Below, one piece after another: positions 30,081 through 34,950 of a stretch of 64,000 nucleotides of DNA. The stretch comes from Nonomuraea dietziae (GTDB lineage Bacteria > Actinomycetota > Actinomycetes > Streptosporangiales > Streptosporangiaceae): positions 558,001 to 622,000 of the forward strand of contig NZ_JACIBV010000001.1 in the NCBI RefSeq assembly GCF_014195505.1, in the 5' to 3' direction. The stretch's first letter is position 1. Every line of letters begins with the position of its first letter. Both the position numbers and the translations under genes were made by a program. The notes under the pieces are model-generated. The model was not told the DNA's origin, did not search any database, and saw only the letters and a program-made list of their open reading frames with translations.

Positions 30081-30180
30081 TTAGACATACCAGGCAGCCT
30101 GACATCAGCTCCCCTAACGGCGCTTGCGATTTCCGAGTACCCCGGCCACCTGATATGCCCGCGTCACCCGATGTGGGCGT

Positions 30181-30690
30181 TCAGTCCACGCCTTCGTCGT
30201 CCTCGTCCAGCTCGGGCGCGTCCGGGTCGCCAGCGGGCGCCGGGCGCCGGCGGCCGGGGTCGCGGCGGTGAAGCTGTAGCGGCCGAGCAGGTTCAGGTTG
30301 CGGTGCTTGGGCGGGGAGAGCCGGGTGATGTCCTCCTCGCGGATCTCGTGGCCCTCGGCCTGGAGCTGGGCGACGGCGGCGTCGATGTAACGGGTCGTCC
30401 AGTGCACGATGGCGTTGATGACCAGGCCGAGCGAGCCTAGCTGGATCCATGCCGTCCCGGTACGCCTGGTGGATGGTGCCGCGCTTGCCGCGGCACACGT
30501 CCCGGGCCAGCTTGTGGCGGGATTCCTGGACGGTGAGGCCGCCGGTACATCTGCCTCCGGTAGGTGCCGTCGACCGGGTCGACCACGCGCAGCAGGTGCT
30601 CGGTCCTGGCGATCCGCCCGTACTCCGCGAACGCCGCACCCAGCGGAGTCAGGCGCCCCTCGCGTCCGAACATGCGCAGCAGTCCGTAGG
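30181..30690 (-). pseudogene. Tn3-family transposase, C-terminal remnant
   Basis: Three frames read in order give the Tn3 DDE C-terminus: RAYGLLRMFGREGRLTPLG with AEYGRIARTEHLLRVVDP, then SRHKLARDVCRGKRGTIHQ, then LGSLGLVINAIVHWTTRYID and ITRLSPPKHRNLNLLGRYSF. An internal TAG (near 30696) and at least two frameshifts (near 30545 and 30440) inactivate it, and a last shift moves the acidic tail out of frame. The N-terminal two thirds are gone. No terminal inverted repeats were found nearby. A second Tn3 fragment, from another part of such a protein, lies at 34.7 kb. Confidence 0.88.
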
Positions 30691-30999
30691 CACGGACCTA
30701 GTTGGTGACCAGGGAACCGGAGACCTTCAGCATGTCCGGTGTTCAGGCTCGGGCTCGCGTTCCTCGGCACGGCACGGTCATGGGCGGCCTCTGCCTGTTT
30801 CCGGGCCAGCTCAACGACCCCCGCCCGGTCCCGCGATCCGGGCGGGGGCGGTGTTGGCTGCCGCCGCGTTGCGCGGGCCTCCTTGGCCTGTCGAAGCGTG
30901 GTCACTGGAGCGACCGCTGCCCTGCTTGATTAGCTGTGGGAACTGCACTTCTCGCAAGTTACTGCCCCAACGCCGTGACACAACGGATCGCATTTTCTG

Positions 31000-31025
31000 T
31001 TTTTGATTTTCTAGAAAATCAAAAA
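31000..31025. promoter_or_regulatory. Perfect 26-bp AT-rich palindrome upstream of the coiled-coil gene
   Basis: Arms TTTTTGATTTTCT and AGAAAATCAAAAA meet without spacer, perfect over 13 bp each side. It is strikingly AT-rich in a roughly 70 percent GC neighbourhood and ends 15 bases before the GTG at 31041. It is best read as an operator for autoregulation of the downstream gene. As RNA it would make a long A/T hairpin overlapping the leader. Confidence 0.8.
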
Positions 31026-31040
31026 TGATAGGCTTCCGGC

Positions 31041-32276
31041 GTGACAGCGGAGATGACGACCGTTACGCCGTGTGCGCACTGTGGGGCGCCGATCGAGCAG
31101 CGCAAGGGCAGGGGGCGGCCCCGGGCGTACTGCGCCGACACCGACTGCCAGGCGGCGGCCAAGCGGGAGCGGGAGTTGCGCAGGGCGACCCCCGGGCTCG
31201 AAGGATCGTTGGCCAGGGCCGAGCAGTTGTACGAGCGGATGGAGACCGGCCTCGCCGCCGCGATAGAACCGCTGGCCAGGGCGTTGACGCAGGAGCTCAG
31301 TCCCGCAGGGGTGGAGGCCAAGCTCAGCGCGGTCCAGGCCGAGGCGCACACGCGGGTCGCCATCGCTCGCACCGAGCGCGAACAGGCCTTCGAGCAGGTA
31401 CGGCTGGCACGCGAAGCGGCCGAGCACGCACGCAAGCAGACCGTCGAGATGCGTCAGGTGGCCGAGGAGGCGCAGGCCGACAGGGACACCGCGCTACGTG
31501 ACGCGGAGACGGCGCGCGAACAGGCGCTGGCGGCGTTGCGTGAGGCGGCCACCACCGAACGGGTGGCCAAGCAGGCCGCCGCCGAGGCCGAGCGCAGGGC
31601 AGGGGTGGCCGAGCGGGCGCGTGACCAGGCGGTCAGGGAGCTGTCCGAGCGGGTGGAGGCGGCCGAGGCGCAGGCGGAGGAGGCCAGGGCGCAGGCCGTA
31701 CAGGCCGAGGAAAGGGGTCGTGCGCGGGCTGAGCAGGCGCGCGAGGAGGTCGAGCGGGCGGCGGCGGAGGCCGAGCAGGCCGTACGGCAGGCGAGGGAGG
31801 AGGCCGATCGGGCGGTCACGTCCGCGCTGGAGGAGCGGGACGCGGCAAGGACGGCGGCGGCCCAGGCGGGGGAGGCCAGGGAGCGGGCCGAGCGCGAGGT
31901 GGCCGCGGCGCAGGCGCGGGCCACGGCCGCGGAGGCGGAGCGGGACCGGGCGCTCGAGCGGGCCGAGGCGGCCGAGGCGCGCGCGGCGCAGGTCGGAGAG
32001 ACGAGCGCCAGGCTGGCGGCCGAATCGGAGGCGCGGGTGGCGGCCGCCGAGCGGGAGCGGGATCGGGCGGCAGCGCGGGTGCGTGAGCTTGAGGGGCTGG
32101 CGGCGGGGGAGTCGTCGCTGGTGGAGGAGCGCGACCGGCTGCGGCTGGAGTCGCAGCTCGACCGGGCGCGCCTGGAGGATCTTCGGACGGAGCTGGAGGC
32201 GGTCAGGGCGGAGGCGGCGCAGTTGCGGGAGCGCGCGGTGAAAGCGGAGCTACGGGCGGCTTCGAAGGGAGACTGA
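31041..32276 (+). CDS. Zinc-finger protein with long coiled coil (KfrA-like organisation)
   Basis: 411 residues. The N-terminus has a putative zinc site: Cys11-x2-Cys14 and Cys31-x4-Cys36 flanking a basic GRGRPR loop, suitable for DNA contact. Residues about 60-400 are an almost uninterrupted Ala/Glu/Arg-rich coiled coil with heptad spacing. There are no TM segments or signal. A small DNA-binding head plus a long alpha-helical tail behind an AT-rich palindrome is the organisation of plasmid KfrA proteins, which bind their own promoter. Homology to KfrA is not visible, only the architecture. GTG start, with AGG eight bases upstream. Flanked by Tn3 relics. Function unknown; autoregulator or segregation/nucleoid factor is inference. 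Confidence 0.8.
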   Translation: MTAEMTTVTPCAHCGAPIEQRKGRGRPRAYCADTDCQAAAKRERELRRATPGLEGSLARAEQLYERMETGLAAAIEPLARALTQELSPAGVEAKLSAVQAEAHTRVAIARTEREQAFEQVRLAREAAEHARKQTVEMRQVAEEAQADRDTALRDAETAREQALAALREAATTERVAKQAAAEAERRAGVAERARDQAVRELSERVEAAEAQAEEARAQAVQAEERGRARAEQAREEVERAAAEAEQAVRQAREEADRAVTSALEERDAARTAAAQAGEARERAEREVAAAQARATAAEAERDRALERAEAAEARAAQVGETSARLAAESEARVAAAERERDRAAARVRELEGLAAGESSLVEERDRLRLESQLDRARLEDLRTELEAVRAEAAQLRERAVKAELRAASKGD

Positions 32277-32436
32277 CGCGGCGCGGCCGCGGAAGAAGAT
32301 CAGGTCCTTGCAGTTGCGGATGCGCGGCATCAGGTCAAAAAAATCCGGGAGGCGGTGTCGGATCGGGGCGGTGGTGTTCGTAGCAGGGGAGAGGCCGCCC
32401 ACAAGGGGCGGCGCCAAGGCGAAGGAACCGCGGATC

Positions 32437-33045
32437 ATGAAGCTGACGACCATGACTCAGGTCACCATCGATGGAGTGATGCAGGGCAACGGCGCGGCGA
32501 CGGATGACCGCAGGAACGGATTCGAGCGCGGCGGATGGGCCCTGGGGAAGGGCGACGACGAGACCAGGACGTTCATCGCGCAGACCTACCAGCGCGCGGA
32601 GGCGTTCCTGTTCGGCCGGCGCACCTACGAGTTGTTCGCCGGCTCCTGGGGATCAATCGACCAGATGCGCGCCCATCCCATCGGCGTGGCCTTGAACGAG
32701 GCCCCCAAGTACGTCGCCTCGACCACGCTCACCGCGCCGCGGTGGGAGGACACGACCGTTCTCCGCGGTGACCTCGCGGCGGCCATCAGTGAGCTGAAGG
32801 CCAAGCCCGGGGGTGAGCTGCAGGTGCACGGCAGCGGCATCCTGACCCGATGGCTGCTGGAGAACGATCTGGTCGACGAGATGACTCTGATCGCGATCCC
32901 GGTGATCCTCGGCCAGGGCGCGAGACTGTTCCCGGAGACCGGCCCGGATCTTGCGCTCGACCTGGTCGAGTCGCGAGTCGACTCGAAGGGTGTGGCGATC
33001 CAGGTCTACCGGCCGGCCGGCCGCCCGCAGTATGCCACGGCCTGA
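32437..33045 (+). CDS. Dihydrofolate reductase-family protein (RibD C-terminal type)
   Basis: 202 residues. YyaP/RibD-C landmarks: MTQVTIDGVMQGNG, AEAFLFGRRTYELFAGSW, KYVASTTLTAPRWEDTTVL, GELQVHGSGILTRWLLENDL and IPVILGQGARLFPE. The fold binds NADPH; most members have unknown substrates and not classical folate reductase activity. Start at 32437 has GAAGGAA upstream. It is 53 bp before a DGPF protein and ECF42-type sigma factor, a neighbourhood commonly seen for these genes, so probably part of that stress-linked unit. Confidence 0.92.
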   Translation: MKLTTMTQVTIDGVMQGNGAATDDRRNGFERGGWALGKGDDETRTFIAQTYQRAEAFLFGRRTYELFAGSWGSIDQMRAHPIGVALNEAPKYVASTTLTAPRWEDTTVLRGDLAAAISELKAKPGGELQVHGSGILTRWLLENDLVDEMTLIAIPVILGQGARLFPETGPDLALDLVESRVDSKGVAIQVYRPAGRPQYATA

Positions 33046-33098
33046 AGTCCCTGACCACCGAACCCCGCTGTCTTGACACCACAGGAGAGGATCTTCAG

Positions 33099-33422
33099 AT
33101 GCGTTATCTGGTTTCCGTGATCGATGACAAGAGCAATCCCGGCAGCACGGACAGGCAGCCCGCCATCAGCGCGTTCAACGAACGGCTGATCGCCGAGGGC
33201 TACTGGGTCTTCGCGGGCGGACTCGCGGACACCGACGCGGCCACGGTCATCGACAACCGGGGCGAGCAGGCGGTGTTCAGCGACGGGCCCTTCGTGGAGT
33301 CGAAGGAGTACCTCGCCGGCGTCTGGGTGTGGGAGGCCCCCGACCTGGATGTGGCGCTCAAGCTCGCCGCCGAGGCGTCGAAGGTCTGCGATCGAAAGCT
33401 CGAGGTGCGGCCGTTCCTGTGA
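33099..33422 (+). CDS. DGPF (YCII-related) protein of ECF42 module
   Basis: 107 residues. YCII-like fold with the family tetrapeptide in AVFSDGPFVESKEYLAGVWV and the start MRYLVSVIDDKSNPG. DGPF proteins are the conserved genomic partners of ECF42 sigma factors and are the usual ECF42 targets; their biochemical role is unknown. Its stop overlaps the sigma-factor GTG (GTGA), so the two are co-translated. RBS AGGAGAGG. Confidence 0.93.
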   Translation: MRYLVSVIDDKSNPGSTDRQPAISAFNERLIAEGYWVFAGGLADTDAATVIDNRGEQAVFSDGPFVESKEYLAGVWVWEAPDLDVALKLAAEASKVCDRKLEVRPFL

Positions 33423-34651
33423 GCGACGTCGAGGAGGCGATCACCCGGGCCCACCACGACGAGTGGGCGCGGGTGGTGGCCTCGCTGACCAGGCGGTTCG
33501 GTGACCTCGACATCGCCGAGGAGGCGGCTGCCGAGGCGTTCGCGACCGCCGTGGAGCGGTGGCCGGCCGACGGCGTACCGCCCAATCCCGGCGCCTGGCT
33601 GACCACGACCGCCAACCGCAAGGCCATCGACCGGATCCGGCGTGAGAACAAGCGCGATGACAAGCACAGGGAGGCTCGGATGACGTACGACGTCCCAATC
33701 GAGCCTGTTGGCGCCATCGATGACGACCGGCTCCGGCTGCTCTTCACCTGCTGTCACCCGGCGCTGGCGGTGGAAGCGCGCGTGGCGTTGACCTTGCGCA
33801 TGGTCGGCGGTCTGACCGTGCCCGAGATCGCCCGCGCCTTCCTGGTGCAGGGGACCACCATGGAGCGGCGCATCACCCGCGCGAAGGCCAAGATCAAGGC
33901 GGCTCGCATCCCCTATCGGATGCCGTCCGCCGACGATCTGCCGGCTCGTGTCTCCGGCGTCCTGGCCGTCCTGTTCCTCGTCTACAACGAGGGCTACCTG
34001 GCCAGCGGCCCCGACACCGATCCCGTACGACACGACTTGACCACCGAGGCGATCCGGCTCACCCGCCTGATCCGCGCGCTCCTGCCGCAGGACGGAGAGG
34101 TGGCCGGGCTGCTGGCGCTGATGCTGCTCACCGAGGCCCGCCGTACCGCCCGGATCTCGGTGAACGGCGAACTGGTCGCGCTCGACGAGCAGGACCGTGG
34201 AGCCTGGGACGTGGAACTGATCGCCGAAGGTCATCGGTTGGTGCGCGAGCGCCTGGCCGCTGCCGCTGCCGGGGTGGCTCCGGGTCGCTACCAGATCCTC
34301 GCCGCGATCAACGCGGTGCACACCTCCGCCCGTGACATCCGCGACACCGACTGGTCGCAGGTCCTCGCCCTCTACGACCAGCTCGTCCGCCTCGACCCCT
34401 CGCCGATCATCGCCCTCAACCGGGCCATCGCCGTGGCCGAGCTCGACGGGCCGGAGGTGGCACTGGCCATCGTTGACCGCCTCACCGAGGCGTTGGCCGG
34501 CTATCACGCCTACCACGCCACCCGCGCCGACCTGCTGCGCCGGCTGGGCCAAAGTCGGCAGGCACGCGCGGCCTACGACCGGGCGATCGAGCTGGCAGGC
34601 AACACCGGCGAGACCGCCTACCTCACCCGCCGCCGCGACCAACTGCGGTAG
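33419..34651 (+). CDS. ECF42-type RNA polymerase sigma factor
   Basis: 410 residues, much longer than a simple ECF sigma. Region 2 is at about 10-75 (DLDIAEEAAAEAFATAVERW, PGAWLTTTANRKAIDRIRR) and region 4 at about 110-160 (LTLRMVGGLTVPEIARAFLV, TMERRITRAKAKI). A C-terminal extension of about 230 residues has VLFLVYNEGYLAS, GLLALMLLTEARR and TPR-like helices near 330-400. This extension plus the DGPF neighbour marks group ECF42, which works without an anti-sigma factor and uses the C-terminal domain for control. A second pair lies at 44.06-45.68 kb. Confidence 0.93.
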   Translation: MSDVEEAITRAHHDEWARVVASLTRRFGDLDIAEEAAAEAFATAVERWPADGVPPNPGAWLTTTANRKAIDRIRRENKRDDKHREARMTYDVPIEPVGAIDDDRLRLLFTCCHPALAVEARVALTLRMVGGLTVPEIARAFLVQGTTMERRITRAKAKIKAARIPYRMPSADDLPARVSGVLAVLFLVYNEGYLASGPDTDPVRHDLTTEAIRLTRLIRALLPQDGEVAGLLALMLLTEARRTARISVNGELVALDEQDRGAWDVELIAEGHRLVRERLAAAAAGVAPGRYQILAAINAVHTSARDIRDTDWSQVLALYDQLVRLDPSPIIALNRAIAVAELDGPEVALAIVDRLTEALAGYHAYHATRADLLRRLGQSRQARAAYDRAIELAGNTGETAYLTRRRDQLR

Positions 34652-34713
34652 CGCCCGCTCTTGAGGAGCGCACTTGATATGGGGATGAAAGGCGACGCGG
34701 AACGTCTATTGAC

Positions 34714-34950
34714 ATGTTCAGACGCCAACCCTTCTCGCCGAGCAACGGCGCAGGATTCGGGGGCGCCCGGGTTGCGGCGGCCGTAGAGACCCGGCCTCTC
34801 GTCGAGCGGCCGCGACTCGCGCGGTACGTGTCGGTCGATGACGCGTTGTCGCTGTTCGATCTGTTGATGGCGACGAAGTTGCCGGCGCGGGCGGGCCGGG
34901 ATGAGGAGAAGGCCGCGCCGCAGGCCGAATCGGCGTCGCGGGCTACGCAG
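34714..34950 (+). pseudogene. Tn3-family transposase, N-terminal-region fragment
   Basis: About 75 codons, best part PRLARYVSVDDALSLFDLLM then ATKLPARAGRDEEK. It resembles the helical DUF4158-like region of Tn3 TnpA (a D-AL-LFDLLMATKLLARAER type stretch). It stops matching at the junction with the ferredoxin-reductase stub on the other strand. Too short and edge-truncated to be a gene. The assignment rests on one motif, so moderate confidence. Orientation is opposite to the Tn3 C-terminal relic at 30.2 kb. Confidence 0.5.

Follow-up and report, generated by a model that had tools for sequence, protein, structure and literature searches.

A probably autoregulated, KfrA-like coiled-coil protein with a putative zinc-ribbon/AT-hook head and a conserved A+T-rich promoter element in Nonomuraea

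The window, i.e. the whole stretch of 64,000 nucleotides of Nonomuraea dietziae that was analysed, contains the gene of a 411-residue protein which is probably a KfrA-like autoregulated coiled-coil DNA-binding protein equipped with an unrelated zinc-ribbon/AT-hook domain. Judged from the sequences compared here, there are strong grounds to expect that the gene very probably controls itself. It is an unnamed, near-core gene of the Streptosporangiaceae, present in nearly all Nonomuraea genomes and mostly as a single copy, and it has no fixed chromosomal address, being almost never found at the same place in two species. The locus is composed of the following elements:

30114..30905, minus strand: relic of a Tn3-family transposase, C-terminal part, flanking context (PF01526, E 3.4e-13)
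30931..30960, no strand: second inverted repeat of the upstream region, in degenerate form (aligned upstream regions)
30979..30989, plus strand: conserved CRCAACRGATC box, also written CGCAACRGATC (information-content profile of 72 upstream regions)
30993..30999, plus strand: extra half-site TTTTCTG in direct orientation 5' of the palindrome (left flank of the core strongly conserved in the profile)
31000..31025, no strand: putative autoregulatory operator, a perfect 26-bp A+T-rich palindrome (sequence and conservation)
31008..31017, within the 26-bp palindrome: conserved operator core TTTCTAGAAA
31026..31034, plus strand: extended -10 element TGATAGGCT, directly after the palindrome and exactly 6 nt 5' of the GTG
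31041..32276, plus strand: gene of the 411-aa zinc-ribbon/AT-hook coiled-coil protein, GTG start
31071..31148, plus strand: putative four-Cys zinc ribbon, C11 to C36, C-x2-C-x16-C-x4-C (invariant columns, MutM profile match, AF2 hairpin)
31107..31124, plus strand: AT-hook core GRGRPR, residues 23-28, within the finger loop (G-R-G-R-P invariant in alignments A1 and A2)
31206..32255, plus strand: coiled-coil rod, about residues 56-405 (alignment A1, periodicity, helices)
about 32280..32340, minus strand: scrap of a Tn3 transposase, FFDLMPRIRNCKDLIFFR, flanking context (translated motif recognised, no profile)

The protein is built as stated in a preliminary description of this DNA, namely from an N-terminal four-cysteine site with a GRGRPR loop and a long coiled coil behind it. 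The cysteines C11, C14, C31 and C36 follow the CxxC...C...C pattern of zinc ribbons and presumably bind zinc; the corresponding hairpin appears in an AlphaFold model based on an alignment of the 168 conserved N-terminal residues (pLDDT 88; long helices follow a short hairpin), the model of 58 residues alone being devoid of strands. The loop carries the R-G-R-P core with basic neighbours that characterizes AT-hooks, GRGRP[KR] being invariant, and GRGRPR would probably bind A+T-rich DNA in the minor groove. The rod of about 350 residues displays a hydrophobic period of 3.54 residues (shuffle p = 0.002) and, over residues 56-411, a composition dominated by Ala (29%), Glu (19%) and Arg (16%). Its length differs among the relatives and its C-terminal end is conserved (alignment A1). 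No evident sequence family had been recognised before, and indeed Pfam, NCBIfam and solved-structure families provided no match claiming the 411-aa protein, a Foldseek search of the 58-aa head against the PDB gave no match, and no paper on the family was found in the literature. The sole family echo is a weak PDB profile match of the ribbon to MutM (E 0.1).

Relatives were detected in 34 of the 35 other Nonomuraea genomes searched, the one without the gene being 63% complete. In the genome collection they were confirmed in 108 stretches, and the 80 best of these all belong to the Streptosporangiaceae; the named relatives assign the window genome to Nonomuraea. Within the order, 127 of 200 genomes contain relatives, some of them diverged paralogs. 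More distant members were detected in further families of the same class, and plasmids from Nocardiopsis, Streptomyces and Frankia carry them as well; a search for phage relatives found none. The N-terminus is about 80% identical between species, and the cysteines as well as GRGRP show little or no variation across the main family. A homologue in Nonomuraea soli (L104, 6400-6900) has lost the promoter element together with its first cysteine pair, CxxC, and looks degenerate.

The palindrome at 31000-31025, TTTTTGATTTTCT/AGAAAATCAAAAA with a spacer of 0, is as perfect as previously described and constitutes a single copy in the genome of 10.24 Mb, even when 3 mismatches are allowed; its 12-bp core TTTTCYRGAAAA is likewise found only once. 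The half-site TTTTCTG at 30993..30999 might be of functional relevance as well. In the upstream regions compared the extended -10 element is conserved and no -35 hexamer is. Of the 30 congeneric loci parsed, 29 have 6 nt (in one case 7) between the -10 element and the GTG, the remaining one (L004) having been mis-parsed by the pattern. The GTG at 31041 is probably a leaderless start; the sequence makes such a message very probable because the -10 element is followed by six bases and then directly by the GTG. Taking the GTG as +1, the -10 hexamer covers -12 to -7, and the palindrome extends from about -41 to -16.

This element is conserved across species. In the 260 bp 5' of the codon for the first Cys, 72 of the 76 family loci contain the motif TTTCYRGNAA, compared with 4 of 4241 equally sized control windows, the family consensus of the core being TTTCYRGAAA. 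The preliminary description had named homologues without the palindrome and with unconserved cysteines as the finding that would speak against its reading; the opposite was observed, as the core is kept at these loci and the cysteines in essentially all homologues, and the proposal of a new, probably autoregulated family of coiled-coil DNA-binding proteins has thereby gained support at the sequence level. Of the 36 Nonomuraea genomes, 27 yielded a 23-bp version of the element (at most 1 mismatch), in one place each and always at this gene, and the reversed control pattern gave 0 matches. Apart from one deviation in a single sequence, the bases TTTC..GAAA are fixed and dyadic. The two bases at the centre are usually asymmetric, and the outer arms, rich in T and in A, respectively, show no clear co-variation. 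The conserved two-fold symmetry is thus that of TTTC..GAAA only, the conserved feature being a 10-bp core with flanking T and A tracts. A strict 26-bp dyad as operator was rejected since the outer arms do not co-vary across species; the perfect 26-bp symmetry is peculiar to this species and represents an extreme form of the element.

A second inverted repeat, whose genus form is ACTTGCGGGAA-N7-TTCYCGCAAGT, is present in most Nonomuraea; 21 of the 36 genomes contain it in intact form, each at a single locus. It is located 5' of the A+T element and close in front of this gene, G030, with the repeat on another contig, being the exception. The copy of the window at 30931..30960 is degenerate, its left arm having decayed. 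Acrocarpospora and Herbidospora carry a different palindrome at this position, ACATAACGAGGATTATGTTGGA or similar. Among the Nonomuraea loci, three (L044, L052 and L067) have a different 5' end with a small ORF upstream; L044 retains the operator 287 bp upstream, and L052 and L067, whose 5' region is replaced, are without it.

In a paralog subfamily found mostly in one other genus of the Streptosporangiaceae, GRGRP is replaced (e.g. by VGAxRTVRYC), and the operator core is absent from the 330 bp upstream at all loci examined. The operator element is also absent from two class-level relatives with GAGRP/GAGRPF loops and from the homologues on Streptomyces plasmids, which seemingly lie 3' of other genes. 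Several diverged members with a basic loop retain A+T-rich palindromes. Frankia plasmid pFQ12 contains an inverted repeat with 15-bp arms that include TTTCCGGAAA, which is also kept at a related locus, and the Nocardiopsis plasmid homologues possess A+T-rich inverted repeats followed by a -10-like hexamer. AT-hook and operator therewith appear to co-occur, a suggestive pattern that comprises few independent lineages or events. The coiled-coil relatives on the Streptomyces plasmids (L182-L184) seem to be situated 3' of other plasmid genes, two of which are DUF6884; two relatives are near zeta toxin genes, and these loci show no A+T-rich palindrome.

The following mechanism is proposed. The N-terminal zinc ribbon would present the AT-hook loop GRGRPR, which might read the A+T-rich TTTCYRGAAA, probably via the minor groove, and the coiled coil would render the protein at least dimeric. 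The site would be centred near -28, over the -35/spacer region of a leaderless promoter of the extended -10 type. Because it covers this region, a dimer bound at -41 to -16 would most simply block RNA polymerase and thus cause autorepression. We infer DNA binding, dimerisation and repression in preference to activation. The long rod of variable length with its conserved ends might serve DNA bridging or a plasmid-like role in maintenance or partition. A DNA-organising role is a guess; for a maintenance role the best hint is provided by the Nocardiopsis plasmid relatives, which reside near ParA and a primase-like gene, the chromosomal gene being without conserved neighbours. An unnamed, nearly family-wide gene would combine a compact zinc/AT-hook head with a dedicated operator, and dozens of species offer operator-protein pairs amenable to testing.

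Alternatively, the protein might act in the manner of Lsr2 as a nucleoid protein or xenogeneic silencer at many A+T-rich places, the operator being merely one strong site. The AT-hook loop and a rod able to bridge DNA would suit such a function, and known silencers select A+T-rich DNA (PMC4466236). However, the genome contains the recognised core just once (for the palindrome, up to 3 mismatches included), which points to a dedicated operator; we consider the silencer function conceivable but not likely. An auto-activator comparable to WhiB7, whose AT-hook would bind the A+T-rich element of a promoter lacking a -35 hexamer and aid SigA in a positive feedback, appears unlikely. It would account for the conservation of the extended -10 element without that of a -35 hexamer, and there is a precedent in WhiB7, an autoregulatory activator whose AT-hook binds an A+T-rich motif immediately 5' of -35 (PMC3905903). 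Yet the site described here, at about -41 to -16, occupies the -35/spacer DNA instead of an upstream position, its core is palindromic, and the protein is a long rod without a Wbl domain. We regard it as decidedly unlikely that the A+T-rich block is a mere promoter element of the UP-like type and the protein unrelated to it, for example a cytoskeletal rod. A-tracts near promoters are common in principle, and rods of this kind are found in cytoskeletal proteins, but TTTC..GAAA is invariant and dyadic, unique per genome and absent from the paralogs without AT-hook.

Comparison of the surroundings of about 20 kb in 15 Nonomuraea genomes (105 pairs) revealed a median shared length of 1.3 kb, essentially the gene, compared with 14 kb for the surroundings of lsr2, a core-region control which may overstate the contrast. 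In the wider family 2611 of 3003 locus pairs have no neighbouring gene in common. Between the window and the closest relative, with a protein 90% identical, the shared segment is confined to 30931-32259, i.e. to the second repeat, the operator and the reading frame. The identity of the gene tracks genome relatedness (rho 0.54), and its descent is therefore broadly vertical.

The reported position between Tn3 fragments proved correct, with scraps at 30114-30905 (PF01526) and about 32280-32340 (motif); they are a local feature, and a repeat at about 32291-32340 is matched at another place in the relative G006 as well. That the gene is a recent passenger of a Tn3-type element without a selected role is highly improbable and is refuted by its distribution, as it is flanked by such scraps on both sides but near-universal in the genus and present in most of the family, highly similar at the N-terminus between species, and follows genome relatedness in its identity. 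The former suggestion that it came with a mobile element is consequently unsupported as worded, given that, among the genomes examined, almost every Nonomuraea and the majority of the Streptosporangiaceae possess the gene. Diverged relatives are nonetheless carried by plasmids, and the gene is without a fixed chromosomal address. A search for an empty site found the flanks of the relative scattered in the window genome and no clean empty site. Several observations concern the downstream side. A RibD_C gene (32440-33045) follows the coiled-coil gene in the window, and in G006 (L113, 8551-9379) the gene after the homologue is, judged by eye, RibD_C-like. The latter locus contains a 55-bp repeat that recurs in the window genome on two small contigs. 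The region of about 32335-34729 is 96% identical to a stretch of the closest relative, where it lies approximately 185 kb away from the gene, indicating a recent rearrangement.

With considerable reserve, the locus might be viewed as a single-gene, self-operated DNA-binding cassette, kin to actinomycete plasmid genes, which is kept by the family mostly in one copy and relocates between species, the unit consisting of the upstream operators and the reading frame; it may be a portable chromosome-maintenance or silencing locus. In any case it exemplifies a conserved gene lacking a fixed chromosomal place.

Regarding known systems, the finger of Fpg/MutM (zf-FPG_IleRS) contacts DNA and shares the CxxCGxxI...YC pattern with the ribbon, which deviates by the weakness of the match, the x4 spacing of the last Cys and the lack of a glycosylase domain. 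Like Lsr2/H-NS-type silencers the protein would choose A+T-rich DNA by a short basic motif and could bridge DNA; silencers, however, bind many sites while the core is unique here, and membership in the Lsr2 family was rejected for want of a PF11774 match. WhiB7/WblC is also actinobacterial and has four cysteines, an AT-hook and an A+T-rich element in its own promoter. In contrast, Wbl proteins are Fe-S proteins without such a coiled coil and WhiB7 is an activator; assignment to the WhiB-like proteins was rejected, as Pfam gave no Wbl domain match. The closest parallel in organisation, already pointed out in the preliminary description and supported here, is KfrA of the IncP plasmids RK2 and R751 and of the IncU plasmid RA3, with an N-terminal DNA-binding part, an alpha-helical tail and an operator overlapping its own promoter (PMC7783346). 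Membership in the KfrA family was rejected, as the test for the KfrA_N/helix-turn-helix domain failed: the window protein had no KfrA_N match (Pfam) at E <= 1, and six plasmid relatives had no Pfam match at 0.01. Both systems combine a small N-terminal DNA-binding part with an alpha-helical tail of about 300 residues, the long coiled-coil tail being evident here from alignment, AlphaFold and periodicity; both have plasmid relatives near parA and an operator over the own promoter, putative in the present case, where position and conservation of the site fit and repression itself would be expected. They differ in that KfrA uses a helix-turn-helix, in RA3 on five 9-bp repeats, and the present protein a zinc ribbon/AT-hook and a palindromic A+T-rich core. 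KfrA homologues are listed in the RA3 paper for Proteobacteria, Firmicutes and Cyanobacteria, not for Actinobacteria (PMC7783346). The gene would thus realise the KfrA plan with another kind of DNA-binding domain, in a phylum absent from that list of homologues.
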